Notes: generated by a model from the letters alone, not told the origin. Positions 2 through 61,066 are shown, numbered from the stretch's first letter. The stretch: 64,000 bases of DNA from an uncultured Clostridia bacterium (GCA_946411525.1 CAMKEI010000004.1:28446-92445), one strand, 5' to 3'. Numbers and translations: made by a program.

Positions 2-382
2 GTCAGCTTTGATATGGACTGGCTGAAGCAAATTAACGATAATTACGGCCATCAGGCGGGAGATTACGCGATCCGCCTGACCGGTAACGCCATCAGAAGG
101 GCTGCACCCAAGGACGCCATTCTGGCGCGTGTAGGAGGAGATGAATTCCTGGCTGTACTGCCGAGAGCGAACCGGCAGGACGCTGATCGCTTTATGGACA
201 GTTTTCAGAGAGAACTGGAACTGCTCAACAGACAGGAGGACCGTGCCTTCAACGTGGAATCCAGCTGTGGTGCGGTCGTATTCAAGCTAAACAGCCTTTC
301 CACCATCGAGGAATGCATCCAGAAGAGCGACGAGGAAATGTACCGGGAAAAAGACAAACGGCACGCCTGCAGAAAAAACTGA
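2..382 (+). CDS. Diguanylate cyclase, C-terminal part of GGDEF domain (5' truncated by window edge)
   Basis: Frame is open from base 2; contains NDNYGHQAGD and RVGGDEFLAVLP, characteristic of GGDEF domains. Confidence 0.9.
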   Translation, partial: VSFDMDWLKQINDNYGHQAGDYAIRLTGNAIRRAAPKDAILARVGGDEFLAVLPRANRQDADRFMDSFQRELELLNRQEDRAFNVESSCGAVVFKLNSLSTIEECIQKSDEEMYREKDKRHACRKN

Positions 383-13178: not shown

Positions 13179-13328
13179 AAAGGGTTTCCGCTTCCTTTCA
13201 GGTGGTTTTTTCGCACGGGGGAGATTGTAGCACTGTTTCCGTGAAACTACAAGGGAAATCCTTGCTACAGGATTGCAGAATATGGTAAAATATCCTGGAT
13301 AAGAGCAATCCGGAAGGGGAACTGAACA

Positions 13329-14486: not shown

Positions 14487-14499
14487 GCAACAGACTATA

Positions 14500-14535
14500 A
14501 AAACGGGACTGCAGCCGCAGCCCCGTTTTTTCTTT
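14500..14535. terminator. Hairpin terminator between convergent fprA-like gene and carB
   Basis: AAAACGGGaCTGC-AGCC-GCAGcCCCGTTTT followed by T-tract. Confidence 0.8.
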
Positions 14536-14543
14536 TTCTTTTC

Positions 14544-17500
14544 TTATTTTCTCATGTGATTGATATCCACCAGCTCCGTGTTCTGCAGGGAGAAGCGGGA
14601 ACCGAGGATGTCCATGAGGGCGTTGGCGGTGTCCAGGGAGGTCATGCAGGGGATGCCGAGCACCATCGCCCTGCGGTGGAGCAGGGTGTAGTCGCCCACG
14701 GTGTCGTCCTTTACAGCTCCCGTATAAATGATATAGTTGACGGATCCGTCTTCCATGAGTCCGAATATTTCATCACTGATCTTGGGATCCTTCACCGGGG
14801 TTACACGGATGCCGACGGCGGATATCGCCCGGGCGGTATCCTTGGTGGCATAGACGCTTATTCCCAGATCATAGCAGCGCTTCGCTACGGCAATGGCATC
14901 CGGGAAATCTTCATCCTCAACGGACAGCAGGACGCCGTTATGACCTTTCTCACGCGCGGTCGGCAGATGGAAACCGGCGGCGGAAAGCCCTTTGAAGAGC
15001 GCTTCCGCTTTGGTGATGCCGATGCCAAGCACCTCGCCGGTGGATTTCATTTCCGGCCCGAGAATGGAGTCGGCGTCGTTCAGCTTCTCAAATGAGAAGA
15101 CCGGCACCTTGATCGCGCAGTACGGAGGAGCCGGATACAGCCCGGTACCGAAACCGAGATCCGCCAGCGACTCGCCGAGCATCACGCGGGAGGCCAGATC
15201 CACCATGGGAACGCCTGTGACCTTCGAAATATAAGGTACGGTGCGTGACGCCCGCGGATTCACCTCAATGACATACAGTTCATTGTCATAGATCAGGTAC
15301 TGGATATTCACCAGGCCTTTCGTGCCCAGGGCCAGAGCCAGTTTGGTGGAGATGTCGCAGATTTTCTCCTGGAACTTTTCCGTGAGGTTGAAGGGCGGAT
15401 AAACAGCGATGGAGTCGCCGCTGTGGACGCCCGCGCGCTCAATGTGCTCCATGATACCGGGAATCAGCACATCCTTCCCGTCAGAGATGACATCCACTTC
15501 CAGCTCGATCCCGGGAAGATACTGATCCACAAGCACGGGGTTCTCAATGCCTCCGGAAAGAATCCGGGTCATATAATCCACGGTCTGCGCTTTACTGCGG
15601 GAGATGGTCATGTTCTGGCCGCCGATGACGTAAGAAGGGCGCAGCAGCACCGGATAACCGAGTCTTTCCGCCGCGGCAACTGCTTCCTCCATCGTACGGA
15701 CGCCCATGCCGCGGGGACGGCGAATGCCAAACTGCTCCAGGAGCTTATCAAAGCGTTCCCGATCCTCAGCGATATCGATGGATTCGGCGCTGGTTCCCAG
15801 GATGTGTATGCCCCGGGAATCCAGGAACTTGGTCAGCTTGATGGCGGTCTGTCCACCGAAGGCGACAACCACCCCCACGGGTTTTTCCACAGCGATGACG
15901 TTCATGACGTCTTCCGGGGTCAGCGGCTCGAAATACAGCCTGTCCGCAGTGTCATAGTCGGTGGAAACGGTCTCCGGGTTGTTGTTGATGATAACCACAT
16001 CATAACCGATGCGCCGAAGCGTCCATACACAGTGGACGGAGGAATAGTCGAACTCGATCCCCTGACCGATGCGGATCGGACCGGAACCCAGAACGATGAC
16101 CACAGGCCGTCCGGAACGCTTCAGGCTCCGTGATTCACAGGCTTTATCCGTGCAGGAATAGAAATACGGCGTTTCCGCGGCGAATTCCGCACCGCAGGTA
16201 TCCACCATCTTATAGCTCATGGTCCAGCCGGGAACTTCCTTCGCGCCGGTTATTCGCCTGACGGCAGCGTCCGGATAACCCATGCGCTTGAAAATCTCAT
16301 AGTCGCCGGGCTGCAAGCCTTTGCCCTCAGTGCGCATTTCCAGTTCCGCCATAGCGCGGAGGCGACAGAGGAAGAACCGATCGATTTTGGTGATGTCAAA
16401 AATCTCATCCACGGTCAGGCCTTGTTTGAGCGCTTCAAAGACAGTAAACAGTCTGCGATCGTCCTGCCTGGCGAGCCGCTCGCGGATCGGCTCATCCGTC
16501 AGCGGCGGGGCGTTCAGCGTATCCAGGGATATTTCTGCGCCACGGACAGCTTTCATCAGGGCTTCCTCAAAGCGCTGGCCGATGGACATCACTTCGCCGG
16601 TGGCTTTCATCTGGGTGCCGAGACGGCGGGAGGAACCGTAGAACTTGTCAAAGGGCCACTTCGGGAACTTGACGACAACATAGTCGACGGTAGGCTCAAA
16701 GCAGGCGCAGGTTTTACCGGTGATATCGTTGGCTATTTCATCCAGGGCATAGCCCAGGGCGAGACGGGTTGTGATCTTGGCGATCGGATAGCCGGTGGCC
16801 TTGCTGGCCAGGGCAGAGGAACGACTGACACGTGGATTGACCTCAATGACCGCGTATTCAAAGGAATCGGGATTCAGGGCAAACTGACAGTTGCAGCCGC
16901 CGACAATGCCGATCGCGCTGACGATGTCCAGCGAGGCACTGCGGAGCATCTGGTATTCCTTATCCGACAGAGTCAGGGCAGGGGCAACGACCACGCTGTC
17001 GCCGGTATGAATTCCTACGGGATCCACATTTTCCATGGAGCAGACGGCAATGACGTTGCCCTGCGCATCCCGCATGGTTTCAAACTCAATCTCTTTCCAG
17101 CCGGATATACATCTTTCCACAAGGATCTGGGTAATGGGGGAGGCGTCCAGTCCGGCCCGCGCGATCTGGCGCATTTCCGCTTCGTCCGAAGCGATACCGC
17201 CGCCGCTGCCGCCCAGGGTATAGGCGGGACGTACGATGACAGGGTAGCCGATATCATCGGCGGCCTTCAAAGCGTCCTCCAGGGTTTCCGCGATCTCGGA
17301 AGGAACGCAGGGCTGGCTGATGGACAGCATGGTGTTCCGGAACTTTTCCCGGTCTTCCGCCTTCTCAATGGCTTCGATGGGCGTGCCAAGCAGACGGACG
17401 CCGAACTCCTCCAACGTACCGTCGCGACTCAGCTGCATGGCCAGGGTCAGGCCTGTCTGGCCACCGAGACCGGCGATCATGCCGTCGGGCCTTTCCTTTT

Positions 17501-17735
17501 CGATAATGCGGCGGACAGTGGCCGCGTTCAGCGGCTCCAGATAGATTTCGTCCGCCAGATGCTGGTCCGTCATGATCGTCGCGGGATTGGAGTTGACCAG
17601 TACTACGTTGATTCCTTCCGCCTTCAGCACGCGGCAGGCCTGAGCACCGGCATAGTCGAATTCCGCTGCCTGACCGATGACGATCGGACCGGAACCGATG
17701 ACGAGGACTTTGCGGATGGAGGGATCCTTAGGCAT
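14544..17735 (-). CDS. carB: Carbamoyl-phosphate synthase large subunit
   Basis: 1063 aa; MPKDPSIRKVLVIGSGPIVIGQAAEFDYAGAQACRVLKAEG. Confidence 0.98.
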   Translation of the reverse strand: MPKDPSIRKVLVIGSGPIVIGQAAEFDYAGAQACRVLKAEGINVVLVNSNPATIMTDQHLADEIYLEPLNAATVRRIIEKERPDGMIAGLGGQTGLTLAMQLSRDGTLEEFGVRLLGTPIEAIEKAEDREKFRNTMLSISQPCVPSEIAETLEDALKAADDIGYPVIVRPAYTLGGSGGGIASDEAEMRQIARAGLDASPITQILVERCISGWKEIEFETMRDAQGNVIAVCSMENVDPVGIHTGDSVVVAPALTLSDKEYQMLRSASLDIVSAIGIVGGCNCQFALNPDSFEYAVIEVNPRVSRSSALASKATGYPIAKITTRLALGYALDEIANDITGKTCACFEPTVDYVVVKFPKWPFDKFYGSSRRLGTQMKATGEVMSIGQRFEEALMKAVRGAEISLDTLNAPPLTDEPIRERLARQDDRRLFTVFEALKQGLTVDEIFDITKIDRFFLCRLRAMAELEMRTEGKGLQPGDYEIFKRMGYPDAAVRRITGAKEVPGWTMSYKMVDTCGAEFAAETPYFYSCTDKACESRSLKRSGRPVVIVLGSGPIRIGQGIEFDYSSVHCVWTLRRIGYDVVIINNNPETVSTDYDTADRLYFEPLTPEDVMNVIAVEKPVGVVVAFGGQTAIKLTKFLDSRGIHILGTSAESIDIAEDRERFDKLLEQFGIRRPRGMGVRTMEEAVAAAERLGYPVLLRPSYVIGGQNMTISRSKAQTVDYMTRILSGGIENPVLVDQYLPGIELEVDVISDGKDVLIPGIMEHIERAGVHSGDSIAVYPPFNLTEKFQEKICDISTKLALALGTKGLVNIQYLIYDNELYVIEVNPRASRTVPYISKVTGVPMVDLASRVMLGESLADLGFGTGLYPAPPYCAIKVPVFSFEKLNDADSILGPEMKSTGEVLGIGITKAEALFKGLSAAGFHLPTAREKGHNGVLLSVEDEDFPDAIAVAKRCYDLGISVYATKDTARAISAVGIRVTPVKDPKISDEIFGLMEDGSVNYIIYTGAVKDDTVGDYTLLHRRAMVLGIPCMTSLDTANALMDILGSRFSLQNTELVDINHMRK

Positions 17736-18798
17736 TCTGAATTCCCCCCTTTACCATGTTTTCAACAAAGCGATCGAACAGGATTGCTGTATCCCGGGGG
17801 CCGGAAGCGGCTTCAGGATGGAACTGAACGGTAAAACACTTCAGATCCGGATAATCCATTCCTTCGCAGCTGCCGTCGTTGGCGTTCCGAAAAGATTCTT
17901 TACCGATTCCTTTCAGGGAATCCGTGACGACCGCATAACCGTGGTTCTGGGAAGTGATATAAGTCCGGCCGGCGTTCAGGTCCCGCACCGGCTGGTTGCC
18001 GCCGCGATGACCGTATTTCAGCTTGATCGTATCTCCGCCGAGGGCGAGAGCCGTCAGCTGATGTCCCAGGCAGATACCGAAGACCGGTTTTTTGCCGATC
18101 AGCTTCTTCAGCTCCGCGATACAGAAGTCATTCTCCTTCGGATCTCCGGGACCGTTGGACAGCATGATGCCGTCCGCGCCGGAAGCAAGGATGGTCTCCG
18201 CGGCGGTCCGGGCAGGCCAGACCGTAACGGAACAGCCCCGTTTCTGTAGACTGCGGATGATATTGTGCTTCGCACCGTAGTCAATCAGGGCTACGCGGCA
18301 TATTTCCTCTCCGTCAGCCGGGCAGGTATAGTTTTCATTGCTTGATACGGAATCCACGGCGTCCTTTACGGTAAAGGCACGGATTTCGCTCAGATCTGAC
18401 GGCACTTCATCGCAGATCATGGCGTTCATGACGCCTTCCTCCCGGGTGATACGGACGATCTCCCGTGTATCCACGCCGCACAGGCCGGGGATGCACCGGG
18501 CTACCAGATAATCGTTGAGCGGATAGGCGGAGCGGAAGTTGGAAGGTGTATCACACAGCTCCCGGACGATATAGCCGAAAAGCGTGCTGCTTCCCTCAAA
18601 ATCCTCTTCGATAACGCCGTAGTTACCGATCAGCGGGAAGGTCTGGGTGACGATCTGGCCGAAATAGCTGGGATCGGTCAGGGTCTCCAGATAGCCCTCC
18701 ATGCCGGTGGTGAAGACCAGTTCACCGATCCGGTCAATATGGGCACCGATGCGTTTACCCTCAAAGACAGTTCCGTTGGACAGTACCAAATATGCCAT
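17728..18798 (-). CDS. carA: Carbamoyl-phosphate synthase small subunit
   Basis: FEGKRIGA...GELVFTTGMEGYLETLTDPSY; class I GATase VFGICLGHQLTALALGG; 8-nt overlap with carB. Confidence 0.98.
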   Translation of the reverse strand: MAYLVLSNGTVFEGKRIGAHIDRIGELVFTTGMEGYLETLTDPSYFGQIVTQTFPLIGNYGVIEEDFEGSSTLFGYIVRELCDTPSNFRSAYPLNDYLVARCIPGLCGVDTREIVRITREEGVMNAMICDEVPSDLSEIRAFTVKDAVDSVSSNENYTCPADGEEICRVALIDYGAKHNIIRSLQKRGCSVTVWPARTAAETILASGADGIMLSNGPGDPKENDFCIAELKKLIGKKPVFGICLGHQLTALALGGDTIKLKYGHRGGNQPVRDLNAGRTYITSQNHGYAVVTDSLKGIGKESFRNANDGSCEGMDYPDLKCFTVQFHPEAASGPRDTAILFDRFVENMVKGGIQNA

Positions 18799-27266: not shown

Positions 27267-29174
27267 ATGTACGCACATCTTCTTCAGCCGGGGAAAATTG
27301 GTTCTTTGTATGTAAGAAACCGTGTGATTATGGCTCCGCTTGGATCCCGCCTGACAACGGAAAACGGCGCTGTAACGGATGATATGATTGAGTTTTACTC
27401 CCAGCGTGCTCGCGGAGGAGCAGGCGTTATTGTAATCGAAGCGATGGGAATTGAATATCCCCAGGCAGTCGGCAAGCCGAATCACGTCCGTTTTCATGAC
27501 GAGCGATATGTCCCGGGCCACGCAAAGCTGGTTGAAAAAATCCACGAATGCGGCGGAAAAGCCTTTGCAATGCTCTGGCACGCCGGCATCAACAAGGGAT
27601 GTCTGGAAGGAGTGCAGCCCGTCGGACCCTCCGCGATCCTGAACCCCAACACCGGTATTGTTCCGCATGAACTGACCGTGGATGAAATCCATGAACTGGT
27701 CAATAAATTCGGGCAGGCAGCCGCCCGCGCAAAACTGTGCGGATATGACGGCGTCAATGTACACGCTGCCCACGGTTACCTGCTTTCCTCCTTTGTATCA
27801 GCAGCCACCAACCAGCGTACGGATGAGTACGGCGGCAGCTTTGAAAACAGGATCCGCTTCCCCCTGGAAGTGCTGGCCGCCATACGCCGGAATACAGGGA
27901 AGGATTACCCGGTCGTTTTCCGCATCAACGGAAGCGATTTCATCGACGGCGGAATCACGCCTGAGGAAGCGGCAGCTTTTGCGGAAGCGCTGGAAAAAGG
28001 CGGTGTGAATGCCATTGACGTATCCGCCGGCGTTTACGGAAGCATTGATACCATGATCGAGCCGATCCAGTATGAAGAAGGCTGGAAGCTGTATCTTGCT
28101 GAAAACATCCGGAAGCATGTCTCCATCCCCGTATTCGGCGTCGGAGTCATTCACGATCCGGCGAAGGCGGACAAAGCGATTGCTGACGGCCAGGTGGATT
28201 TTGTCTGCGTCGGCAGGGAACTGCTTTGTGAACCGCAGTGGGTCAACAAGGCTGCCGCCGGAGAAACGCATTTTGTCAAATGCATCGGCTGCAACTCCTG
28301 CTTTGAGCGTATCGGGAAAAATCTTCCCATCCGCTGCGCCGTGAACGCGCTGGCCGGGCGGGAGCTGCATACTCCCCGGCCCGCAGAAAAGCCGCTGAAC
28401 ATTGCGGTTGCCGGAGCAGGACCTGCGGGCATCACCGCAGCCGTCACGGCGGCAGGGCGCGGCCATCACGTTACACTGTTTGAAAAGGAAAACCATATCG
28501 GCGGACAGCTGGTGCTTGCCGGCGCACCGCCCCGAAAAGACAAAATTCTGGAATATATCGGGTATCTGCAGGAAGAGCTGAACCGGTCTGAAGTGGAAGT
28601 GAAGCTCTGTCATGAGTTCACCGTGGAAGACGCCCGGTCCTTCGACCGTGTGATTGTGGCCGCAGGGGCACACTGCAGAACGATTCCTTTAAAAGGCAGC
28701 GGCTTTGAATACATGACTGCCTGGGACGCCCTGCAGAACCGGTCTTTCTCCTGGGACAGCAGAAATGTGCTGCTCATCGGCGCCGGCAGCGTAGGCTGCG
28801 AAACTGCACTGTATATCCGGGAGCACGGTGCGGCGAGTGTAACTGTCGTGGAAATGCGGGAAAAGATTGCGGCGGATATGGACAACATCAGCCGGATGAA
28901 ACTGCTGCATGAGCTGGCGGAATGCGGGGTTCGCACCCTGCCTTCCACCGTACTGGATCATATGGAAAACGGCATGGCTTACCTGTCCGGAAACGTAGGG
29001 GAAAAGATCCCGTGCGACACGGTGGTCGAGGCTGTCGGCGCCGCTCCGGATCGGGAGCTGTGCGACGCGCTTTATCAGAACGGCATCCCGTTCATCAACA
29101 TCGGCGATGCCGCATGCATTGGTAAAATCGGGGAGGCAGTCCGTGGAGGATTCGACGCGGCAGCGACGATCTGA
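27267..29174 (+). CDS. NADH:flavin oxidoreductase/2-enoate or 2,4-dienoyl-CoA reductase family (OYE + Fe-S + FAD domains)
   Basis: PGKIGSLYVRNRVIMAPLGS, HAAHGYLLSSFVSAATNQRTDEYGGSFENR, CIGCNSCFERIGKNLPIRCAVN, NIAVAGAGPAGITAA. Confidence 0.92.
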   Translation: MYAHLLQPGKIGSLYVRNRVIMAPLGSRLTTENGAVTDDMIEFYSQRARGGAGVIVIEAMGIEYPQAVGKPNHVRFHDERYVPGHAKLVEKIHECGGKAFAMLWHAGINKGCLEGVQPVGPSAILNPNTGIVPHELTVDEIHELVNKFGQAAARAKLCGYDGVNVHAAHGYLLSSFVSAATNQRTDEYGGSFENRIRFPLEVLAAIRRNTGKDYPVVFRINGSDFIDGGITPEEAAAFAEALEKGGVNAIDVSAGVYGSIDTMIEPIQYEEGWKLYLAENIRKHVSIPVFGVGVIHDPAKADKAIADGQVDFVCVGRELLCEPQWVNKAAAGETHFVKCIGCNSCFERIGKNLPIRCAVNALAGRELHTPRPAEKPLNIAVAGAGPAGITAAVTAAGRGHHVTLFEKENHIGGQLVLAGAPPRKDKILEYIGYLQEELNRSEVEVKLCHEFTVEDARSFDRVIVAAGAHCRTIPLKGSGFEYMTAWDALQNRSFSWDSRNVLLIGAGSVGCETALYIREHGAASVTVVEMREKIAADMDNISRMKLLHELAECGVRTLPSTVLDHMENGMAYLSGNVGEKIPCDTVVEAVGAAPDRELCDALYQNGIPFINIGDAACIGKIGEAVRGGFDAAATI

Positions 29175-29220
29175 CCATCGATGCTCACCGATTACAATAA
29201 AAACAAAGGAGAAAGGAAAA

Positions 29221-30327
29221 ATGAAAAAGCTCGTATCACTCTTACTCGTCCTCATGCTGTCCATGGCCGCGTTTACCGCCCTGGCAGATGAACCGGTCAA
29301 AATCGCGCTGACCGCGCCGCTGACCGGCAACCTGTCCCAGTACGGTGAAAGCTTCCAGAACTCGGTAACACTGGCCTGCAAGCAGTGGAATGACAAAGGC
29401 GGCGTCCTGGGCCGTAGCGTGGAACTGGTGATTGAAGACACCGCCGGAGATCCCGCGCAGGCTGCCACGGTTGCTCAGAAGATCGTAAGCGACGGCAGCA
29501 TTTTTGCCGAAGTAGGCGATTTCAACACAGCCTGCTGCATGGCTGCACAGCCCATCTATGCCGGTTCAGAAATGCTGCAGGTTTCCCCCACCTGTTCTGC
29601 CGTCAACTTCGCCGTCGGCTCCGAATGGTCTTTTGAATGCCTCGGAACCCAGGATGTACAGGGCGAATTCATGGCAAACTGGGCATATGAAAACGGCGCC
29701 CGCAAGGTTGCGGTTCTTTACCTGAACAGCGACTGGGGCATCAGCGTCGACAACGGTTTTGCGAAGGCTTTCAAGGCCCTTGGCGGCGAGATCGTCATTG
29801 AAGAGCCCTACAATGACGGCGAGACTGACTTCAGCGCTGCGCTGACCAAGCTGCGCGAAACCGAACCCGACGCGCTGTACATTGCCTGCTATTACAACGA
29901 CGGCGCTGCCATCAATATTCAGCGTGAAGTACTGAACTGGGATATCCCCGTCTATCATCCCGGCACAGTGTATTCCACGGACTTCCTGTCCATCGGCGGC
30001 ACGGCTGTGGAAGGCGTCCTGACAAACGTCGGTTTCTATCCGGACGATCCCACCCCCGAAGCGGCTTCCTTTATCGCCGAGTACAACACCCTGTACGGCA
30101 AGGATCCCGATTACTACGGCGCCTGTGCCTATGATGCTTTCAACGTTCTGATGGAAGCAATCGAGCGCGCCGGTGAGCTGGACACACACAAGGTCCGCGA
30201 AGCGCTGGCAGCCACGGACGCTCATCAGGGCGTTTCCGGCAGCATCACTTTTGATGAAAACGGCGACGCCCGCAAGAGCTATATCAAACTGACCATTGAG
30301 AACAACCAGTACAAGGTGGTTCGCTGA
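29221..30327 (+). CDS. ABC transporter substrate-binding protein, Liv/HAAT type
   Basis: Signal peptide MKKLVSLLLVLMLSMAAFTALA; VKIALTAPLTGNLSQYGESFQNSVTLACKQWNDKGGVLGRSVELVIEDT. Confidence 0.93.
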   Translation: MKKLVSLLLVLMLSMAAFTALADEPVKIALTAPLTGNLSQYGESFQNSVTLACKQWNDKGGVLGRSVELVIEDTAGDPAQAATVAQKIVSDGSIFAEVGDFNTACCMAAQPIYAGSEMLQVSPTCSAVNFAVGSEWSFECLGTQDVQGEFMANWAYENGARKVAVLYLNSDWGISVDNGFAKAFKALGGEIVIEEPYNDGETDFSAALTKLRETEPDALYIACYYNDGAAINIQREVLNWDIPVYHPGTVYSTDFLSIGGTAVEGVLTNVGFYPDDPTPEAASFIAEYNTLYGKDPDYYGACAYDAFNVLMEAIERAGELDTHKVREALAATDAHQGVSGSITFDENGDARKSYIKLTIENNQYKVVR

Positions 30328-30454
30328 TGCTTACGGGGAGAGGCGGATATCAACCGCCTCTCCTCTGTTTCCGGCTGTTGCCGTACACAGCGGATAATTG
30401 CCGGCACTGTCTTCACTGCGGCTCTATATGCAATGGAAAGTCGGTGGATATTAT

Positions 30455-31333
30455 ATGACGATGATTGTTCAGCAATTGGTCAACGGCATTACCCAGGGCG
30501 GTCTGTACGCCCTGCTGGCCATTTCCTATTCGCTGGTTTACGGCGTGATGAGCCTGGTCAATTTCTCGACCGGTTCCATCTATATGCTTGGAGCGGTAGG
30601 TGCCTGGCTGCTCTGCAATTACCTGATTTCGGACTTTTTGCTTTCCCTGGTCGTGGGATTTGCAGTAGGCTTTGCGCTTGCCTTTATACTCGAAAAAATA
30701 GCATTCAAATCCATTCGCGGCATCAGCCGGATTTCCTCCCTGATCTGCACGATTGGGTTTTCCCAGATGCTCAATGAGCTGACGGCTCTGTTGTTCGGAA
30801 AAGCCACCAAAGGCATGCCGTCTTTTTTCTCGGAAAAAGCGTTTGAAGTGGTTGGCGTTACAATCAGCTGGCTTCAGCTGATTCTGATGCTGGCGGTGGT
30901 TGTTGTGCTGGTTACACTGCAGCTCTTTGTCTATAAGACGAAGATGGGACTGGCCGTGCGTACCGTGGCGATGGACAACACAACTGCGGGCCTGATGGGA
31001 ATCAATGTGGACCGGACGATTTCAATTGCGTTTTCTCTGGCGGGTGCCTGTGCCGGTATCGCCGGTGTCGCCGGATGCATCTATTATCGTTCGGTATCTG
31101 CATACATGGGTTGGATTCCGGGGATCAAGTCGTTCTCAGCGGCCGTTTTCGGCGGCCTGAGCTCCATGCCCGGCGCGATTCTTGGCGGCTATCTGATGGG
31201 GATTATCGAGAACTTCGGTGTGCAGATTTTCTCCACCGGCTATCGCGACGTAATCAGTTTTGTGGTTATGATCATCTTCCTGCTCTTCTGCCCGGCCGGC
31301 TTGCTTGGGCGTAAAAAGACGACCAAGGTGTAA
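30455..31333 (+). CDS. Branched-chain-type ABC transporter permease LivH-like
   Basis: QQLVNGITQGGLYALLAISYSLVYGVMSLVNFSTG; AAVFGGLSSMPGAILGGYLMGIIE. Confidence 0.93.
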   Translation: MTMIVQQLVNGITQGGLYALLAISYSLVYGVMSLVNFSTGSIYMLGAVGAWLLCNYLISDFLLSLVVGFAVGFALAFILEKIAFKSIRGISRISSLICTIGFSQMLNELTALLFGKATKGMPSFFSEKAFEVVGVTISWLQLILMLAVVVVLVTLQLFVYKTKMGLAVRTVAMDNTTAGLMGINVDRTISIAFSLAGACAGIAGVAGCIYYRSVSAYMGWIPGIKSFSAAVFGGLSSMPGAILGGYLMGIIENFGVQIFSTGYRDVISFVVMIIFLLFCPAGLLGRKKTTKV

Positions 31334-31346
31334 GGAGGATCAGGCT

Positions 31347-32327
31347 ATGAAGAAAAAAATAAATCCGCGGGCGTTGATCCTTCTGCTGGCGCTCCTGGCA
31401 CTGCTGACGGCGTTTCCGTTCTGTGTCAGCAATTATATTATCCAGATTGCGGTATACTGCGGCATTTATATCATGCTGGCAGTCAGTCTGAACCTGCTGG
31501 TTGGCTACACGGGCATTTTTTCCATGGGCCATGTCGCGTTCTTCTGCATCGGCGCCTATACCTCGGCGTTGCTTGCAACCAAGCTGGGAATAGCATTCCC
31601 CCTGTGCTTTATTGCAGGAGGCATCGGAGCGGCATTCATCGGTGCGCTGGTCGGTTTTGCGACACTGCGGCTGAATGATATTTTCCTTGCGTTTACAACC
31701 ATGGGCCTGGGCGAAGTGATCCGGATCATCATCCAGAACGCCAGCTTCACAAACGGCGCGCTGGGGGTAGCCGGAATCCCGATGCCGATGCTGGCAGGCC
31801 ACAAGATGACCAGAATAGAGTTCTATTTCATGGTGCTAATTCTGGTGCTGATTCTGGTTTACCTGGTCAGCCGGCTGGTCCACTCCAATACCGGACGCAC
31901 GCTGAAAATGATCCGGGACGACGCAAATGCAGCCTCAAGCCTTGGCGTCAACGTATTCCGCTATAAGATGACGATCATGATCCTTTCCTGTTTTGTTGCC
32001 GGACTTGCGGGCTCGCTGTATGCCACTTTCCTGCAGTACATTAACGCCTCCAACTTTTCCATCAGCATATCCATCAATATCATCGCGATGGTTGCGATAG
32101 GAGGAATGGGCACCATCAGCGGGCCGATCATCGGCGCTATTCTGCTGCAGGTACTGCCGGAGGCCATCCGTTTCCTGTCCAATTACCGCCAGCTGATGTT
32201 CGGTATAGCGCTCGTCATCTCAATCATGTTTGCCCCGCGCGGCCTTGTCGGTCTGAACTGGAAGCGCATCCCTTTCATCGCATCCGTTTGCGAAAAACTG
32301 AAGACCAATAACGGAAAGGAGATCTGA
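31347..32327 (+). CDS. Branched-chain-type ABC transporter permease LivM-like
   Basis: LNLLVGYTGIFSMGHVAFFCIGAYTSALL; IAMVAIGGMGTISGPIIGAILL. Confidence 0.93.
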   Translation: MKKKINPRALILLLALLALLTAFPFCVSNYIIQIAVYCGIYIMLAVSLNLLVGYTGIFSMGHVAFFCIGAYTSALLATKLGIAFPLCFIAGGIGAAFIGALVGFATLRLNDIFLAFTTMGLGEVIRIIIQNASFTNGALGVAGIPMPMLAGHKMTRIEFYFMVLILVLILVYLVSRLVHSNTGRTLKMIRDDANAASSLGVNVFRYKMTIMILSCFVAGLAGSLYATFLQYINASNFSISISINIIAMVAIGGMGTISGPIIGAILLQVLPEAIRFLSNYRQLMFGIALVISIMFAPRGLVGLNWKRIPFIASVCEKLKTNNGKEI

Positions 32328-32329
32328 TC

Positions 32330-33091
32330 ATGCTATATGCTGAAGAGGTTTCCGTTCGTTTCGGTGGACTGACGGCGGTTGACCGGGTGTCGCTCCACAT
32401 TGTACCGGACGAGATTCACGCCATCATCGGACCCAACGGCGCCGGAAAGTCAACCTTTTTCAATGCCATTTCCGGAATCAACAAACCTTCCGAAGGGAAG
32501 ATCACCTTTCAGGGCAAAGACATCACCGGGCTGAAACAGCATCAGGTCGCTCAGATGGGAATCGGCCGTACCTTCCAGAACATAAAACTGTTCGGTTCCA
32601 TGACTGTCATGGAAAACGTACTGTGCGGTTATCATCAGCACGTAAAAAGCGGGTTGGTGCATGATCTGTTCGGCCTTCCTTCCCAGATGCGGGAGGAGGC
32701 TGAGCTGCTGGAACGCTGCAAAGAACTTCTGGCACGCGTGGAGCTGTATGACAAGCGGATGATGAAAGCCAACAATCTACCCTATGGAGAACAGCGCAAG
32801 CTGGAGATTGTCCGGGCCATGGCGACAGGGCCGAAGCTTCTGATGCTGGACGAACCGGCTGCAGGAATGAACCCCAGCGAGACGGAGGAGCTGAAGCAGT
32901 TCATCCGGAAAATCAACGCTGAAGGTCTGACGATCCTGCTGATCGAACACGACGTCAAAATGGTCATGTCCCTGGCAGACACCATCACGGTGCTGGATCA
33001 CGGTTCGAAAATTGCGGAGGGCAGCGCAGACGAGGTCAAGAACGATGAGAAGGTCATCGAAGCCTATCTGGGAAAGTCCTATCGGAGGTAA
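32330..33091 (+). CDS. ABC transporter ATP-binding protein LivG-like
   Basis: IGPNGAGKSTFFNAISG, LLMLDEPAAGMNPSET. Confidence 0.95.
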   Translation: MLYAEEVSVRFGGLTAVDRVSLHIVPDEIHAIIGPNGAGKSTFFNAISGINKPSEGKITFQGKDITGLKQHQVAQMGIGRTFQNIKLFGSMTVMENVLCGYHQHVKSGLVHDLFGLPSQMREEAELLERCKELLARVELYDKRMMKANNLPYGEQRKLEIVRAMATGPKLLMLDEPAAGMNPSETEELKQFIRKINAEGLTILLIEHDVKMVMSLADTITVLDHGSKIAEGSADEVKNDEKVIEAYLGKSYRR

Positions 33092-52334: not shown

Positions 52335-52862
52335 ATGAGCAAAAAACTCGAAGAGTATGTCGTAACCATTCCCAATTTTCCCGAACCCGGGATTATGTTC
52401 CGGGATATCACTTCCGTGATCCAGGATCCGGATGGCCTGAAGCTGGCAGTCGACGGGCTGGTAAACCTGCTCAGGAATACGGAATATGACCTGATCGTCG
52501 GACCGGAATCCAGAGGGTTTATATTCGGCGTGCCGGTGGCATACCTGCAGGGGAAAGGATTTGTTCCTGTCCGGAAAAAAGGCAAGCTGCCGCGCCGGAC
52601 CGTGAGCCAGAAATACGACCTGGAATACGGACAGGCGGAGATCGAAATGCATGTGGACGCGGTCAGGCCCGGACAGAAGGTGGTAATCGTGGATGACCTG
52701 ATCGCGACAGGCGGCAGCGCTGAAGCGGCTGCGAAACTGGTGGAACAGCTTGGCGGCCAGGTGGTAAAGATGATTTTCGTCATGGAGCTGGCAGGCCTGG
52801 AAGGCCGGAAGAAACTGGACAAGTACGATGTGGAATCCCTGATTGTCTATGAAGGAAAATGA
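52335..52862 (+). CDS. apt: Adenine phosphoribosyltransferase
   Basis: FPEPGIMFRDIT, GPESRGFIFG, VVIVDDLIATGGSAEAA. Confidence 0.96.
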   Translation: MSKKLEEYVVTIPNFPEPGIMFRDITSVIQDPDGLKLAVDGLVNLLRNTEYDLIVGPESRGFIFGVPVAYLQGKGFVPVRKKGKLPRRTVSQKYDLEYGQAEIEMHVDAVRPGQKVVIVDDLIATGGSAEAAAKLVEQLGGQVVKMIFVMELAGLEGRKKLDKYDVESLIVYEGK

Positions 52863-53549: not shown

Positions 53550-53572
53550 ATAGCTCGAAAGGAGGGGTGACC

Positions 53573-53896
53573 ATGACTATTTCAGCAGATCTGCTGCGCG
53601 GATATACGGACACGATTATCATGCGGCAGCTGGCGGAAACGGACGGCTACGGCTACGGCATCAGCCGCGCGGTGGCGGAAAAGAGCGACGGGATGGTGCA
53701 GCTGAAGGAAGCAACGCTGTATACGGCCTTCCGGCGCATGGAAGAGAGCGGGTATATCAGCTCCTACTGGGGAGATGAATCGACAGGCGCCAGACGGAGG
53801 TACTACAGCCTGACGGAACCGGGCAGGGAAAAGCTCGCTGACGATAAGGAAGCCTGGGAAGAAACCAGGAGAGTAATGGATACATTATTGGGATAA
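53573..53896 (+). CDS. PadR family transcriptional regulator
   Basis: LRGYTDTIIMRQLAETDGYGYGISRAV...LKEATLYTAFRRMEESGYISSYW. Confidence 0.92.
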   Translation: MTISADLLRGYTDTIIMRQLAETDGYGYGISRAVAEKSDGMVQLKEATLYTAFRRMEESGYISSYWGDESTGARRRYYSLTEPGREKLADDKEAWEETRRVMDTLLG

Positions 53897-53910
53897 AGGG
53901 GGAAGGAAAA

Positions 53911-55026
53911 ATGAATCAGACAGTGAAGAGGATTGTGGACATCCTGTTTCAGGATGTGATTGAGAATGAGGAAACGAATGCGCTGCATGAAGAACTGATG
54001 AACAACTGCCAGGAGCATTTTCAGGACTTGATCGGCCGCGGACTGAGCGAGGACGAGGCGGTTGCTGAAGTGGTGGAAAGCCTGAAGGGAATGAAGGACG
54101 TAATCGGCCAGTATCCGAAAAAGACTTCCGGGCATTCTTCCTTTTCCGAATCCGGGGAATGTGACGAAGAAGCGTGTTTTGCTTTTACCGGCGCGGATAC
54201 GCTGAAGGCTGAAACGACAGACCAGGATATTCTCATCAGTCCTTCCGCGGACGGAGCGATCCATATCCGGTGTGACGATCCCGAAGGGGTGAAAGCCGAA
54301 CAGATCGGAAACGAAGTGCGTGTTACCGGCGGAAAGAAGAGCGACAAGGTATCCGCGTCCTTCCAGTTCCCTGAAGGAGAGGATATCAGCATCAGCGGCA
54401 TCCTGAACATGGTTGGCAAAGCGATCCGGAATGTCGCAACCACTTTCCAGGGCGGATCGCCGATTATCATCGAGGTCCCGGACGGACAGATGAAGGAGAT
54501 TGAACTGAACAGCCGCAGCGGAGACATAGAGTGCTGCTGTGCCATGGCCCGTAAGATGACGGTCCGTTCCACCAGCGGCAACGTAACACTGCAGCCTGAG
54601 ACTGAAAAGACCGCTGAAAAGCTGATGATCAGCACGGTCAGCGGGGACGCCGAGGTCCACGGTTCCGCACTGGAAGGAGAGGCCACCAGCATGAGCGGCG
54701 ACGTGACAGTGGACGGAGTTTTTGAAACGCTGGAAATGAAGAGCACAAGCGGAAGCATTGAATTCAACGGCTCTGTGATAAACGCCGCTGCCAGCACGAT
54801 CAGCGGGGACATCAGTGTAACTGTTGAAAACACGGCTGTGAAGCAGGTGACGGGGAAGAGCACAAGCGGCGACGTGGAGATCTACCTGCCGCACGGACTG
54901 CACAGCGTACATGCGGAATGTTCCACGGTCAGCGGCGACTGTCTTTCCAGGGTATCCGACGCCGGTATGGCGGCAACGGTTCAGATACGCGCAAAAAGCG
55001 TCAGCGGAGACGTCACAGTGCAGTAA
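53911..55026 (+). CDS. DUF4097 family beta-strand-repeat protein with N-terminal permease-associated-like helical region
   Basis: Repeated S(T/V)SGDV-type units: STVSGDAEV, SMSGDVTV, STSGSIEF, STISGDISV, STSGDVEI, STVSGDCL, SVSGDVTV. Confidence 0.8.
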   Translation: MNQTVKRIVDILFQDVIENEETNALHEELMNNCQEHFQDLIGRGLSEDEAVAEVVESLKGMKDVIGQYPKKTSGHSSFSESGECDEEACFAFTGADTLKAETTDQDILISPSADGAIHIRCDDPEGVKAEQIGNEVRVTGGKKSDKVSASFQFPEGEDISISGILNMVGKAIRNVATTFQGGSPIIIEVPDGQMKEIELNSRSGDIECCCAMARKMTVRSTSGNVTLQPETEKTAEKLMISTVSGDAEVHGSALEGEATSMSGDVTVDGVFETLEMKSTSGSIEFNGSVINAAASTISGDISVTVENTAVKQVTGKSTSGDVEIYLPHGLHSVHAECSTVSGDCLSRVSDAGMAATVQIRAKSVSGDVTVQ

Positions 55027-55045
55027 AAAAACATCACCAATATGC

Positions 55046-55084
55046 GGAATACCTGTTATAATAAATGACAGGTATTCCCTTTTT
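55046..55084 (+). terminator. Terminator downstream of the DUF4097 gene
   Basis: GGAATACCTGT-N11-ACAGGTATTCC followed by CTTTTTC. Confidence 0.75.
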
Positions 55085-55134: not shown

Positions 55135-56070
55135 ATGAAAAGGCAGTGTTTTTGTACGGTGGTGAGCCTGATTCTGGGCGCAGCCCTGCTTTTCTGTATG
55201 GTTTTCCCGACTGCCGCGGCTGAGTCATATTATGTGGAGAACGAATGGAATTACGTTGACGGAGCCATGGATGCCAGCCATGGGATTCCGGAAAACGCCA
55301 CGGGCGTCCTGGACCGGATCCGCCGCCAAGGCGTGCTCCGGGTGGCGACAGAACCGTATTTCGCTCCCTTTGAGTTTATCGATCCGGAGCAGCTGGATCC
55401 CCAGCGAAAATATGCCGGGGCAGATATGAAGCTGGCGGCACTGATCGCGGAACGGATGGGTGTAAAGCTTGAAATAGTCCCGTTGGAGTTTGCACAGGTG
55501 CTCCCGGCACTGACGGAAAACCAGTGCGACCTGACAATCTCGGCGATTTCCTTTACCCCGAACAGGGCTTCTTTATACACCATGTCCAAGGGGTATTACT
55601 TTCCCGAAACGACGGCGAGCACAGCCTTTATGATCCGGGAGGAGGACAGAGGCAGGATTACCTCCCTGGATGACCTGGCTGACAAAACCATCATCGTTAA
55701 GAGCTGTTCCCTGCAGGAAGCGCAGGCATCGAAGCATATCTTCCGCTATCGTGAATTCCGGCGGGTATCCTCAGTTCAGGCGGTATACGAGGCAGTGCGG
55801 AGGGGAAGAGCGGACGCAGGCGTTGTTGATATGGAAACAGCGTCCAATTATATCCGGAACAACACGGACGCCGGCCTGATGCTGGCGGAGAATGAAGATC
55901 TGTATTTCAAACTGGATGAAGCGTATCTGGGGCACCGGATCGTCGCCAAAAAGGGAGAACTGCAGCTGATATATTTCGTGAACGGCGTGATCAACGAGGT
56001 GCTTTCCGACGGATCGTATACTAAATGGATTGAGGAAGCGCAGGCTCGAGCCGCTGAACTGGGCTTCTGA
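55135..56070 (+). CDS. Amino-acid-type (SBP_bac_3) extracellular solute-binding protein
   Basis: Signal peptide; GVLRVATEPYFAPFEFIDPEQ...GADMKLAALIAERMGVKLEIVPLEFAQVLPALTENQCDLTISAISFTPNRA. Confidence 0.9.
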   Translation: MKRQCFCTVVSLILGAALLFCMVFPTAAAESYYVENEWNYVDGAMDASHGIPENATGVLDRIRRQGVLRVATEPYFAPFEFIDPEQLDPQRKYAGADMKLAALIAERMGVKLEIVPLEFAQVLPALTENQCDLTISAISFTPNRASLYTMSKGYYFPETTASTAFMIREEDRGRITSLDDLADKTIIVKSCSLQEAQASKHIFRYREFRRVSSVQAVYEAVRRGRADAGVVDMETASNYIRNNTDAGLMLAENEDLYFKLDEAYLGHRIVAKKGELQLIYFVNGVINEVLSDGSYTKWIEEAQARAAELGF

Positions 56071-56103
56071 CAGGAGAGCGGAAACGGGATAACACGGAGG
56101 GGG

Positions 56104-59100
56104 ATGCACGTGAAGAAAAAGAAGACCTTCATACCGGTGTTCTGCCTGCAGATCCTTCTGTGTCTGTTTCTGAACTGGGGCGGTGATCAGCTGGTGTCCA
56201 GCTGGAACTGGCCGGTCTGGCTGGATTCAGCCGGTACAATGCTCTCGGCTTATCTGCTCGGCCCCTGGTGCGCTGCCATTATCGGCGGGACATACAATCT
56301 GCTGGGGCATATTCTGTACGGAATTCCGTGGTGGTACGCTCTGGTCAGCGTTGTGATCGGCCTGATTGCCGGCTTTGCCGCGAGAAGAAAATGGCTGGAT
56401 CATCTGCTTGGCACGATGACTACCGCCGCCATCATGGCTGCCGCCGTAGCGGTGACCGCCTATCCCATCAACATGATCCTGAACAACGGCAGTACCGGCA
56501 ATAACTGGGGAGACGCTGTAATCGGTTTCCTCGGTGAGGCCGGCATCCCGAACTGGATCAGCCTGTTTATTGCAGAGCTTTATGTTGAACTGCTGGACAA
56601 GCTGCTGATTCTGGTTGTCCTGTTCCTGATGACCGAGCTCATCAAGCTGATTCGGAACAAACTGAAAAATGAAGAAGAAACACCGGGAAAAGAAAAGGAC
56701 GGCGAAGCATCTGCCGCTGTGAAGGCACTGTCACTGATGACGGCTGCAGGGCTGTGCCTGGCCGGAGCGGGAACTGCTATACCCGCCGCACAGGCTGAAA
56801 GCGCAGGCATTCCATCTGAGTTCAGCTATAACGATTATGTCCAGACGATTTATTCCAGCACCAACGGCCTGCCCTGCGGCGAAGCGAATGATATTGCCAT
56901 TACCGGCGACGGGATCATCTGGATCGGCACATATGCCGGCCTGTACCGTTACAACGGGCAGGAATTCCGCTGGATGGACGGGTTTGATTCGGTCCGGAAT
57001 GTCAATTGCCTGTATGTGGACGAGGAAGGACGCCTCTGGATCGGCACGAACGACAACGGCCTGTCCATTGTGATCAACGAGCAGGTGGCCAATGTTATTG
57101 ACCAGAGCCAGAACCTGCCGGCCAACGCGGTCAAATCCATCATTAAGAGTTCCGACGGATACTACTATATCGGAACCACAGGCAGCATGCAGATCCTGAC
57201 GCTGAATAACGGCCTGAAACGGCTGAATACACTGTCCGAGGTGGCTTACGCGGATCATCTTGCCGCAGACAGCAAAGGCAATGTTGCCGCGGTGACCAAC
57301 GACGGCATCCTGTTCCTTATGCAACAGGGCCAGATCGTTTCATCCCGCCAGCTGCCGGAACGTCAGACCACATTCAGGAGCTGCGCATTTGATCCGGACG
57401 GGTATCTGCTGGCAGCAACATCCGGAAATGAAATATTCCGTTTTGATATCAGCAAAGGCTGGTTTGAGCTGCAGGACGTGACAGAGTGCCCGGAGCTCCA
57501 GAGCATACAGAACATGTATTTCCTGGAAAACGGGCAGATGTTCATGTGCGCGGACAACGGCGTTGCCTATATCGATACGAACGGCGAGTACGAGAAACTC
57601 AATACGAATGACTTTAACAATTCGATTGACAACATGCTGGTGGACTACCAGGGGAACCTGTGGTTCACTTCATCCCGGCTCGGGCTGATGCGGATGGCTG
57701 CTTCCGATTTCCGGGATATCTATACGACAGCCGGTATGGAGAACCGGGTGACGAATACGATTGTCCAGTGGAACGGCGTCTATTACTTCGGGACAGATAA
57801 AGGCATGGACGCTGTGAATCTGAAGGGAAAACGCCGCGTAACCGACGCGCTGACGGAAGAGTTTGCGGGAATCCGTATCCGCTGCATGACGGTGGATGAC
57901 CGGAATCGTCTGTGGATATGCACACACGGAAGAGGCTTGTATGAGATTGAACCGGACGGAACAGAATATGAGTACAGCAGGGAAAACGGTCTTTTCGGAA
58001 ACAAGGCGCGCGTAGTAACTCAGCTCCGGGACGGGACAATCCTCGTTTCCTGTGATACAGGACTGGGATTCTTCCGGGATCACGCAGTTGTGGACATGAT
58101 CTATTACTCCGATACAAAGATCAGCAGCAATACGGTCATGTCCATGACGGAGCTGCCGGACGGCAGAATCCTTGCCGGGACAGACGGAAACGGTATCGCC
58201 GTGATTGAGGACCGGAAGGTAACCCGGATGCTCACAAGAGCAGACGGGCTGAGCAGCGAGGTCATTCTTCGCACGGTGCCGGATGTGAAGACCGGCGGCG
58301 CTTTTATCGTAACAAGCAATGGACTGTGCTATATGAACACGGACGAAACCATCCGGAAGCTCGATAATTTTCCGTACTTCAACAACTACGATATCTGGAT
58401 CAAAGGCACAGACAGCCTGTTTGTACTGTCCAGTGCGGGAATCTATACTGTGGACCGGAATGAACTGCTCAGCGGCAAAGACGAAATATCCTACGATTTA
58501 CTGGATTCACGGCGCGGCCTGAACAGCAGCCTGACGGCGAATTCCTGGACCTGGTTTAACGATGAGACCGGTGAACTGTACCTGGCCTGCGATACCGGCG
58601 TGTTTGTGATCAACACCAACAGCTTTTCATCCGGCACGAAAGTATACCGGATGAGTGTTCCCACCATCCGGACGGACGGTGTAACCCACCGGGTGGACCG
58701 AAGCATGACGCAGAAGATCCCACGGGGCGTCAGCCGTATAGAAATACAGCCCGAGATCATTAACTATACGATCCAGGATCCCAATGTGGGATATATGCTT
58801 GAAGGCTTTGACCAGGACTGGACCATTGTGGCCCAGAACTCGCTGGGCACCATATCCTACACGAACCTGCCAGCGGGTGACTATGTGTTTCACCTGGCTG
58901 TCTTTGACAACAACCGGGAAAACGTGCTGGCGGAACGCACCTACAGCATTACCAAAGAAAAAGAAATGTATGACAACAGCTGGTTTGTCTTTTATATGCT
59001 TTCGGTTCCGATGTTTACAGTGGGATGGGTTACCTGGCTGCTGGTCAAGCGTCATGAACGGAAAATGGAAGAGCAACTGGCCATGGCGAACCGGCAGATC

Positions 59101-59823
59101 GAGATGGGCAAACAGACGGTGATCGCCATAGCGCGTACTGTCGATGCCAAGGATCAGCGAACCAGCGATCACAGCAAACGCGTCGCAATCTACTCCAAGC
59201 AGATTGCCCAGGCTTACGGACTGGACAGGAAGCAATGCCAGGATATCGAGTGGGCCGCACAGATGCATGATATCGGTAAGATCGGTATACCGGACGCTAT
59301 CCTGAACAAACCCGCCCGACTGACGGATGACGAGTATGCCGTTATGAAATCCCATACTGTACGCGGCGCGGAAATTCTGAAGGATTTTACACTGCTGGAC
59401 AACGTCATAGACGGTGCGCAGTATCACCATGAGCGGTATGACGGACGCGGCTACCCCCATGGACTGAGCGGGGAGGACATTCCGCTGTTTGCCAGAATCA
59501 TCGGAGTGGCGGACGCCTTTGACGCGATGACAGCCAACCGTATTTACCGTCAGCAGATGGACTTCAGCTATGTGCTCGGCGAAATGGAAAGAGGACGGGG
59601 AACCCAGTTTGATCCGACATTTGTGGATATTCTGCTGAAACTTATCAAAGACGGTACGATCGATCTGAACAAACTCTATCATGTCTCCAAAGAAGACAGC
59701 GATCAGGCGGAAAAGGCGGCGGCAGAAGCCAGGGCGTCAGGGGACAATAAGACGGAAGCGAATCCGTACAGTTCCGGCAGCGTTTCAGTGCGGAAGGATC
59801 CGGAGAAGGGAGACAAGGCATGA
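56104..59823 (+). CDS. Multidomain receptor: N-terminal ECF S-component-like membrane domain, two-component-regulator beta-propeller, Y_Y_Y domain, TM, HD-GYP phosphodiesterase
   Basis: N-term LSAYLLGPWCAAIIGGTYNLLGHIL; propeller repeats IWIGTYAGLYRYNG, LWIGTNDNGLSIV, LWFTSSRLGLMRM; HDIGKIGIPDAIL...HHERYDGRGYPHGL...ARIIGVADAFDAMTANRIYR. Confidence 0.88.
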   Translation: MHVKKKKTFIPVFCLQILLCLFLNWGGDQLVSSWNWPVWLDSAGTMLSAYLLGPWCAAIIGGTYNLLGHILYGIPWWYALVSVVIGLIAGFAARRKWLDHLLGTMTTAAIMAAAVAVTAYPINMILNNGSTGNNWGDAVIGFLGEAGIPNWISLFIAELYVELLDKLLILVVLFLMTELIKLIRNKLKNEEETPGKEKDGEASAAVKALSLMTAAGLCLAGAGTAIPAAQAESAGIPSEFSYNDYVQTIYSSTNGLPCGEANDIAITGDGIIWIGTYAGLYRYNGQEFRWMDGFDSVRNVNCLYVDEEGRLWIGTNDNGLSIVINEQVANVIDQSQNLPANAVKSIIKSSDGYYYIGTTGSMQILTLNNGLKRLNTLSEVAYADHLAADSKGNVAAVTNDGILFLMQQGQIVSSRQLPERQTTFRSCAFDPDGYLLAATSGNEIFRFDISKGWFELQDVTECPELQSIQNMYFLENGQMFMCADNGVAYIDTNGEYEKLNTNDFNNSIDNMLVDYQGNLWFTSSRLGLMRMAASDFRDIYTTAGMENRVTNTIVQWNGVYYFGTDKGMDAVNLKGKRRVTDALTEEFAGIRIRCMTVDDRNRLWICTHGRGLYEIEPDGTEYEYSRENGLFGNKARVVTQLRDGTILVSCDTGLGFFRDHAVVDMIYYSDTKISSNTVMSMTELPDGRILAGTDGNGIAVIEDRKVTRMLTRADGLSSEVILRTVPDVKTGGAFIVTSNGLCYMNTDETIRKLDNFPYFNNYDIWIKGTDSLFVLSSAGIYTVDRNELLSGKDEISYDLLDSRRGLNSSLTANSWTWFNDETGELYLACDTGVFVINTNSFSSGTKVYRMSVPTIRTDGVTHRVDRSMTQKIPRGVSRIEIQPEIINYTIQDPNVGYMLEGFDQDWTIVAQNSLGTISYTNLPAGDYVFHLAVFDNNRENVLAERTYSITKEKEMYDNSWFVFYMLSVPMFTVGWVTWLLVKRHERKMEEQLAMANRQIEMGKQTVIAIARTVDAKDQRTSDHSKRVAIYSKQIAQAYGLDRKQCQDIEWAAQMHDIGKIGIPDAILNKPARLTDDEYAVMKSHTVRGAEILKDFTLLDNVIDGAQYHHERYDGRGYPHGLSGEDIPLFARIIGVADAFDAMTANRIYRQQMDFSYVLGEMERGRGTQFDPTFVDILLKLIKDGTIDLNKLYHVSKEDSDQAEKAAAEARASGDNKTEANPYSSGSVSVRKDPEKGDKA

Positions 59824-61013
59824 AGAAACAGATTGCCCTGACAGCGGTTATCTGCGCTGCTGTGCTGATTGCGGCATCGATCCTGACCGGTTTCTGGGAC
59901 AGCTCCAAAAGCGCGAACGTCCTGAAAGTGGGCTTTGTCTATTCCGAGGATGAAAGCACACCCTACACTGCGAATTTCGTCAAGGCTCAGCGGGTGCTGG
60001 AGGATGAATACGGCAGCAGGATTGAGATCCTGTCGAAGAGCAACGTGCTCGGCCGCGAATGTGAGCAGCCGATCCGGGATCTTATCCGGGACGGCGCAAG
60101 TATTCTCTTCATAAACCTGGATACGGATATTCCGGTCATCCTGGCCCGGGAGTTTCCGCAGATCCAGTTCTGTCAGGCTTCCATGCCGACAATCAGCATC
60201 GAAGGGACGCCGGAAAATTACCACACCTTTAACGGGGAGATTTACCAGGCACGGTATGTCAGCGGTATTGCCGCCGGTATGAAGCTGCGCCAGCTTCTGG
60301 ACAGCGGCTCACTGCTGCCGCAGGACGCGCTGGTCGGTTACGTCGGCGCCAATTCCACCGCCGAGGTGATCTCAGGTTATACGGCGTTTCTGTTGGGCGT
60401 GAGAAGCGTGGCGCCGGAGGCGACCATGCGGGTCCGCTATACAGGAAGCTGGAGCAATTTTGCCGCGGAAAAGGAACAGACTCGGGAACTGATCAAAGAA
60501 GGATGCGTTATTATTGCGCAGCATGTCAATACGACAGCCCCCGCCGTGGCCTGCGAGGAAGCTGCCTCGTCAGGGCAGACGGTCTATCATGTCGGATATC
60601 ATCAGAGCATGCTGGATATCGCTCCTTCTTCTTCCCTGGTCAGCATCCGGACAAACTGGGCACCGTATGCTGTTCAGGCTGTACAGGCTGTCATGAATGA
60701 CCAGATCATTGAAAACGTGGTGGAAGCGCATGCCCACGGACGCGATCTGAGCGCAGGATTTGAAAGCGGATGGGTGGAACTGCTGGAACTGAATACATTT
60801 ATTGCCGCGGAGGGGACCCGGGAGAAAATCGATCATGCCATCGCAAACCTGATAAGGGGACGGACCAAAGTATTCAGCGGAAATTATACCGGCGTGAATC
60901 CGATCAATCCCGCCGACACAATCGATCTGAATACGGGATATACTGAATGTCAGTATTCTTCCAATCCATCCTTCGGGTATGTGCTGCGGGACTATATCAC
61001 GGTGGAAAACTGA
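59820..61013 (+). CDS. BMP (basic membrane protein/PnrA-like) family solute-binding protein
   Basis: VLKVGFVYSEDESTPYTANFVKAQRVLEDEYG, GEIYQARYVSGIAAGMKL, VGYVGANSTAEVISGYTAFLLGVRSV; 4-nt overlap with HD-GYP gene. Confidence 0.85.
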   Translation: MKKQIALTAVICAAVLIAASILTGFWDSSKSANVLKVGFVYSEDESTPYTANFVKAQRVLEDEYGSRIEILSKSNVLGRECEQPIRDLIRDGASILFINLDTDIPVILAREFPQIQFCQASMPTISIEGTPENYHTFNGEIYQARYVSGIAAGMKLRQLLDSGSLLPQDALVGYVGANSTAEVISGYTAFLLGVRSVAPEATMRVRYTGSWSNFAAEKEQTRELIKEGCVIIAQHVNTTAPAVACEEAASSGQTVYHVGYHQSMLDIAPSSSLVSIRTNWAPYAVQAVQAVMNDQIIENVVEAHAHGRDLSAGFESGWVELLELNTFIAAEGTREKIDHAIANLIRGRTKVFSGNYTGVNPINPADTIDLNTGYTECQYSSNPSFGYVLRDYITVEN

Positions 61014-61033: not shown

Positions 61034-61066
61034 AAGAAGCGCGGTTCAGAATGAACCGCGCTTCTT
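61034..61066. terminator. Bidirectional terminator
   Basis: AAGAAGCGCGGTTC-AGAAT-GAACCGCGCTTCTT. Confidence 0.85.

Follow-up and report, generated by a model that had tools for sequence, protein, structure and literature searches.

The genes for a large HD-GYP receptor (hereafter REC) and for a PnrA/AtzT-type binding protein (BMP) form a fixed unit across loci of different families. We consider it probable, at roughly 60%, that BMP is a dedicated extracytoplasmic purine-binding subunit that docks on the receptor and changes c-di-GMP hydrolysis, with the amino-acid-type solute-binding protein (SBP) encoded upstream, SBP3, as an added input. The locus was analyzed within a window of 64,000 nucleotides from the draft genome (2.45 Mb, 85% complete) of an uncultured Clostridia bacterium; the named relatives are mostly metagenome-assembled genomes of ruminant origin.

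The three open reading frames proposed in the initial annotation are all present at the predicted positions (Table 1), as is the 4-nt overlap, which consists of the REC stop and the BMP start. The two expected terminators correspond to terminator-like hairpins, and the region between them indeed contains no permease or ATPase gene. The second hairpin could be usable on both strands. The first hairpin is separated from the SBP3 start by 56 bp, in which no sigma-70-like promoter was detected. The unit is preceded by PadR and DUF4097 genes (identified by Pfam) and followed by convergent genes; the PadR regulator and DUF4097 pair (window 53567-55026, plus strand) is hairpin-terminated and kept in the nearest relatives only. 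Many loci in the lineage of the window keep an adenine phosphoribosyltransferase-like gene (window 52335-52862, plus strand) upstream of the unit, a possible purine-salvage context. Outside the unit, the window contains an ABC transporter (29107-33091) of the branched-chain amino-acid type, which has its own binding protein. An Rfam scan of the window yielded two tRNAs and no other match, and a search for the RF01051 riboswitch gave no match, as did its control.

Table 1. Features of the SBP3-REC-BMP locus (window coordinates).
Feature	Position	Strand	Basis
Terminator-like hairpin closing the upstream PadR/DUF4097 unit	55046..55078	+	14-bp stem, then T-rich tail CTTTTTCTTT
SBP3, secreted amino-acid-type solute-binding protein, 310 aa	55135..56070	+	PF00497 (SBP_bac_3), E 3e-23
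HD-GYP receptor (REC), 1239 aa	56104..59823	+	Pfam and relatives
REC aa 1-205, predicted six-helix membrane domain, ECF S-component/5TMR fold	56104..56718	+	AF2 pLDDT 93.7
REC aa 207-232, membrane-crossing helix out to the ectodomain (inferred topology)	56722..56799	+	hydrophobic VKALSLMTAAGLCLAGAGTAIPAAQA after Lys-rich cytosolic loop
REC aa 244-860, two predicted beta-propellers (Reg_prop repeats)	56833..58683	+	AF2 pLDDT 90.5; Foldseek
REC aa 861-955, Y_Y_Y domain	58684..58968	+	PF07495, E 1.2e-11; part of HTCS-type match
REC aa 960-982, last membrane helix	58981..59049	+	hydrophobic segment SWFVFYMLSVPMFTVGWVTWLLV
REC aa 1006-1185, HD-GYP domain	59119..59658	+	HD_5, E 1.6e-41; catalytic motifs intact
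REC/BMP overlap ATGA	59820..59823	+	identical -4 spacing in 72/94 loci
BMP, membrane-anchored PnrA/AtzT-type binding protein, 397 aa	59820..61013	+	PF02608, E 3e-21
BMP N-terminal membrane anchor, in place of a lipobox	59832..59891	+	hydropathy
Terminator-like hairpin, unit end	61034..61066	+	perfect 15-bp stem, weak T tail on +

A query with the receptor found matches in 42 of the 61 genomes searched, some through the HD-GYP or propeller part alone; nearly all full-length matches belong to the window's genus. With 80 additional named loci, many titled Lachnospiraceae or Butyrivibrio, the set comprised 94 receptor loci after removal of duplicates, each with at least 1150 bp of downstream sequence. 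BMP is the next gene in all 94 distinct loci, with the exact -4 overlap in 72, an adjacency far beyond chance. In the Lachnospiraceae-type loci, the remaining neighbors vary from locus to locus. In a class-wide sample, the full-length receptor was detected in only two further genomes, both with BMP, so that the unit is patchy. The receptor itself is found in the genus of the window and in many loci titled Lachnospiraceae; most of the order's other families in the sample lack it, and it may have been transferred horizontally from one gut bacterium to another. Among the matches listed, we noticed no protein in which the receptor is fused to BMP or to SBP3. Adjacency calls for caution in general, as pointed out for orphan SBPs encoded beside Pseudomonas aeruginosa kinases, where proximity need not mean functional relationship (PMC11113362).

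The proposed conservation of the three-gene order thus holds for the receptor and BMP, which stay together across families despite changed neighbors, and is limited to the window's lineage as far as SBP3 is concerned. SBP3 lies upstream of REC in this one lineage only, does not occur in the loci of Lachnospiraceae type, and requires three changes when its presence and absence are mapped on the tree. In a relative from the same genus (locus L022, G013:C17), REC-BMP is kept and SBP3 is missing, which makes this locus a natural test of the role of SBP3. SBP3 is dispensable for the unit, and the three-gene sensory unit of the initial annotation is better described as a core of two genes, joined in one lineage by a further partner. 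The SBP3 protein has an SPase I-like signal and no lipobox, and its amino-acid-binding residues are kept in relatives (Arg R144 in 50/50, Asp D227 in 49/50).

The Pfam matches of REC above the cutoff are HD_5, Reg_prop and Y_Y_Y. According to the structural model, its ectodomain is of the Bacteroides HTCS type, with a double propeller followed by Y_Y_Y; the best Foldseek match is the ectodomain of BT3049 (3v9f, TM 0.81, E 7e-35), and that of BT4663 (4a2l) has a TM of about 0.76. Mean column identity in the nearly uniform ectodomain is 74%, and identity between the lineages amounts to 62% in propeller 1, 65% in HD-GYP and 34% in the membrane domain; the high conservation of the propellers is consistent with an ectodomain held by partner contacts. 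The HD-GYP motifs (HDIGK, H1084, HHE..DG.GYP, D1137/D1140) are invariant in 96 of 96 sequences, and with these motifs REC should be a phosphodiesterase that hydrolyzes c-di-GMP. No histidine kinase, receiver or AraC output was found in REC, HD being the only output domain matched by Pfam.

The N-terminal membrane domain has the S-component fold in the predicted model, which the initial annotation did not recognize. A sequence-profile search of the PDB with this domain gave no match, so that a fold search was needed; its 12 best Foldseek matches in the PDB are all ECF S-components, with TM values of up to 0.59/0.67 among the matches, modest E-values (0.014 and up) and probabilities of 0.93-1.00. 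Weak Pfam matches of the 5TMR-LYT and ECF kinds (PF07694, PF12822 and PF07155) occur across the members, PF07694 reaching E<=0.01 in 65 of 92. The 5TMR NxR motif between helices 1 and 2 occurs in none of the 92 receptor sequences, and the helix-1 AxxxA motif, which in S-components serves for docking of EcfT, in only eight of them. Lacking NxR and a general AxxxA motif, the domain thus qualifies neither as a LytS-type receptor nor as an evident transport subunit. The residues that are invariant in it (W39, D41, G44, T45 and G129-G136) are predicted, given the inferred topology, to map mostly to outward-facing loops, that is, the substrate-binding side of S-components.

The outgroup consists of proteins with propeller, Y_Y_Y and HD-GYP but no S-component domain (31-36% identity), found in the same genus and elsewhere. 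None of 15 such homologs has BMP beside it, and no SBPs were found among their Pfam-read neighbors, which are all housekeeping or unrelated genes. Thus, BMP arrived with, or is tied to, the receptor form that bears the S-component domain. Since the homologs without this domain also lack BMP, the link counts as a single evolutionary event, and co-occurrence therefore cannot tell which domain BMP contacts.

In locus L125, a receptor paralog (13149-18094, minus strand) combines the propeller ectodomain with a membrane part of several helices at the C-terminus and lacks HD-GYP, and its gene overlaps that of a SpoIIE-type PP2C phosphatase, i.e., the same ectodomain is joined to another output. Shorter HD-GYP proteins with a REC-like N-terminal membrane domain (25-26% identity) and no propeller are encoded at L130:4415-6559 (+) and L131:3793-6195 (+), the former with a 5TMR-LYT match.

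The best solved relatives of BMP are 3s99 (E 2e-24) and AtzT (6pi5, E 1.7e-17). In AtzT, guanine lies between Tyr45 and Trp194 and is bound at 110 nM, with Glu165, Ser97, Asn218 and Asn220 also involved (PMC6834077). When the pocket residues were transferred to BMP through the alignment with the solved relatives and their conservation was counted in 92 sequences, Tyr45, Trp194 and Glu165 corresponded to Y49 (91/92), W211 (92/92) and E182 (91/92), and the Asn218 and Asn220 positions to H235 (89/92) and N/D237. The loop matching Ser97 is different and falls into lineage-specific forms, which may mean that not all members bind exactly the same purine. Given that most of the guanine-binding residues are conserved, the ligand of BMP is likely a purine base. 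Of the amino acids and nucleosides originally listed as candidate ligands, the latter can be refined for BMP to a purine base, which is likelier than a nucleoside because BMP falls within the nucleobase-binding AtzT/3s99 branch.

The ligand domain of BMP shows 52% identity between lineages. All 92 receptor-linked BMPs have a best 19-aa hydropathy above 1.6, and only two have a canonical lipobox. The closest non-receptor BMPs in the class, in 17 of 17 loci, have a lipobox (judged by eye on the N-termini) and an adjacent ABC ATPase, and most have an xpt-type gene. The source genome itself encodes two complete Bmp-type transporters, one PnrA-like and the other xpt-linked, the latter in the order xpt-BMP-ATPase-permease-permease and separate from the receptor locus. 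The BMP of this xpt-linked transporter in the genus also has no lipobox and carries an SPase I-like signal, and we accordingly rejected lipobox loss as sole proof of recruitment. The receptor-linked BMP retains the Bmp fold and the purine pocket and lacks both the lipobox and ATPase/permease neighbors, for which the simplest reading is that an importer SBP was recruited as a membrane-anchored co-receptor. A 644-aa protein with a Bmp domain (Pfam 289-449) is encoded at L125:5599-7533 (+) (G000:C16); its N-terminal half is apparently cytosolic and ParB-like by eye, and most genomes of the genus contain long frames of this type (about 640-700 aa).

We hypothesize that BMP derives from an ABC importer, was re-anchored by a transmembrane helix and now serves REC as its ligand-binding subunit. 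Ligand-loaded BMP would dock either on the ectodomain, with its propellers and Y_Y_Y, or on the outside of the membrane domain and move the last helix (aa 960-982), thereby altering HD-GYP activity in one direction or the other; in the window's lineage, SBP3 would provide a further input and may also dock. The GGDEF enzyme noted at the window start is a fragment (window 2-382) of a 658-aa frame in the contig. In favor of the hypothesis, this genome encodes 5 GGDEF proteins, compared with 9-18 in four relatives; against it, PilZ gave no match in five genomes of the genus (G000, G002, G018, G022, G035), each with 5-18 GGDEF matches. Other routes are known by which purines outside the cell influence c-di-GMP, namely dCache_1PU cyclases (PMC11245519) and metabolic control (PMC11197132). 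Members of the PBP/SBP clan are frequent among c-di-GMP proteins, but SBP_bac_3 is the only one studied there (review PMC8846402); no Bmp-type co-receptor was found in the literature searched.

A different division of labor, which we consider unlikely, would make the ectodomain the true sensor, of glycans or other compounds as in HTCS, with the S-component-like domain sensing a small molecule and BMP and SBP3 merely modulating or stabilizing the receptor. The ectodomain fold equals that of BT3049 and of the heparin sensor BT4663, the propellers are very conserved, most of the residues that are invariant in the membrane domain fall in loops predicted to face outward, and S-component-fold domains are known as receptor inputs (PMC11109136). 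Nevertheless, such a scheme leaves the perfectly kept BMP with its intact purine pocket unexplained, and the near uniformity of the ectodomain is unlike adaptation to different glycans, which vary in the rumen.

It seems quite improbable that BMP and SBP3 are ordinary transport SBPs for permeases elsewhere, merely co-operonic with the receptor. The xpt-linked transporter would be one candidate partner, its BMP being a 36% identical paralog of the receptor-linked one and also without a lipobox, so that lipobox loss alone is not decisive; yet this transporter has its own BMP within its operon, and the receptor-linked BMP carries a transmembrane anchor and is never away from the receptor in the 94 loci. 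Service by distant permeases, which the initial annotation held to count against its proposal, is for these reasons unlikely for BMP; for SBP3, it is conceivable. Still less probable is that BMP hands its purine to the S-component-like membrane domain, the protein then being a transceptor or an uptake-linked sensor. BMP does accompany only the receptors with this domain, but that co-occurrence amounts to one event, and AxxxA is rare; true S-components are not known to use an SBP and require an ECF module.

If BMP is indeed a purine-binding subunit of REC, purine availability would be linked to c-di-GMP in abundant rumen Clostridia, and the unit would outline a route from a transporter SBP to a receptor subunit, with an anchor in place of the lipobox and an overlapping receptor gene in place of the transporter. 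More speculatively, REC might integrate several transporter-borrowed modules (the S-component-fold domain, the BMP co-receptor and the lineage-specific SBP3) on an HTCS-type propeller hub and could be a coincidence detector of purines and amino acids such as those from lysed cells in the rumen. The unit provides a widely conserved, concrete candidate for a Bmp-type co-receptor with a predicted ligand class, and its receptor appears to be a single protein that joins a membrane domain of the S-component fold to an ectodomain of the HTCS type.

Several known systems resemble the unit in part. With the purine-base-binding AtzT/3s99 proteins and the BMPs of xpt-linked ABC importers, the receptor-linked BMP has its fold and the larger part of its purine pocket in common; it differs by having no transporter and no lipobox, by its transmembrane anchor and by the overlap with a receptor gene. 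The double propeller and Y_Y_Y resemble those of the Bacteroides HTCS proteins BT3049 and BT4663 (TM 0.76-0.81); unlike these hybrid two-component systems, REC has an HD-GYP output, an extra S-component domain and dedicated SBPs. The six-helix S-component fold also serves as the membrane part of the 5TMR/S-component-fold receptors LytS, BtsS and YpdA (PMC11109136), from which REC differs by the lack of NxR, the large extracellular propeller module and the HD-GYP output; the main text of that survey contains neither the term propeller nor HD-GYP. The precedent for the mechanism is NspS-MbaA of Vibrio cholerae and Sinorhizobium, where the loaded SBP alters the activity of a c-di-GMP enzyme (PMC9993111). 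In both cases, a transporter-type SBP is paired with a membrane receptor, with no transporter genes alongside, but NspS-MbaA consists of a PotD-type polyamine SBP and a GGDEF-EAL receptor with a simple periplasmic domain, whereas here Bmp, along with SBP_bac_3 in one lineage, is combined with HTCS-type propellers, an S-component fold and HD-GYP. By analogy, the unit may work like NspS-MbaA without being a homologous member of that system: the principle of an SBP-controlled c-di-GMP receptor is already known from NspS-MbaA, and the REC-BMP architecture varies it in a new way.
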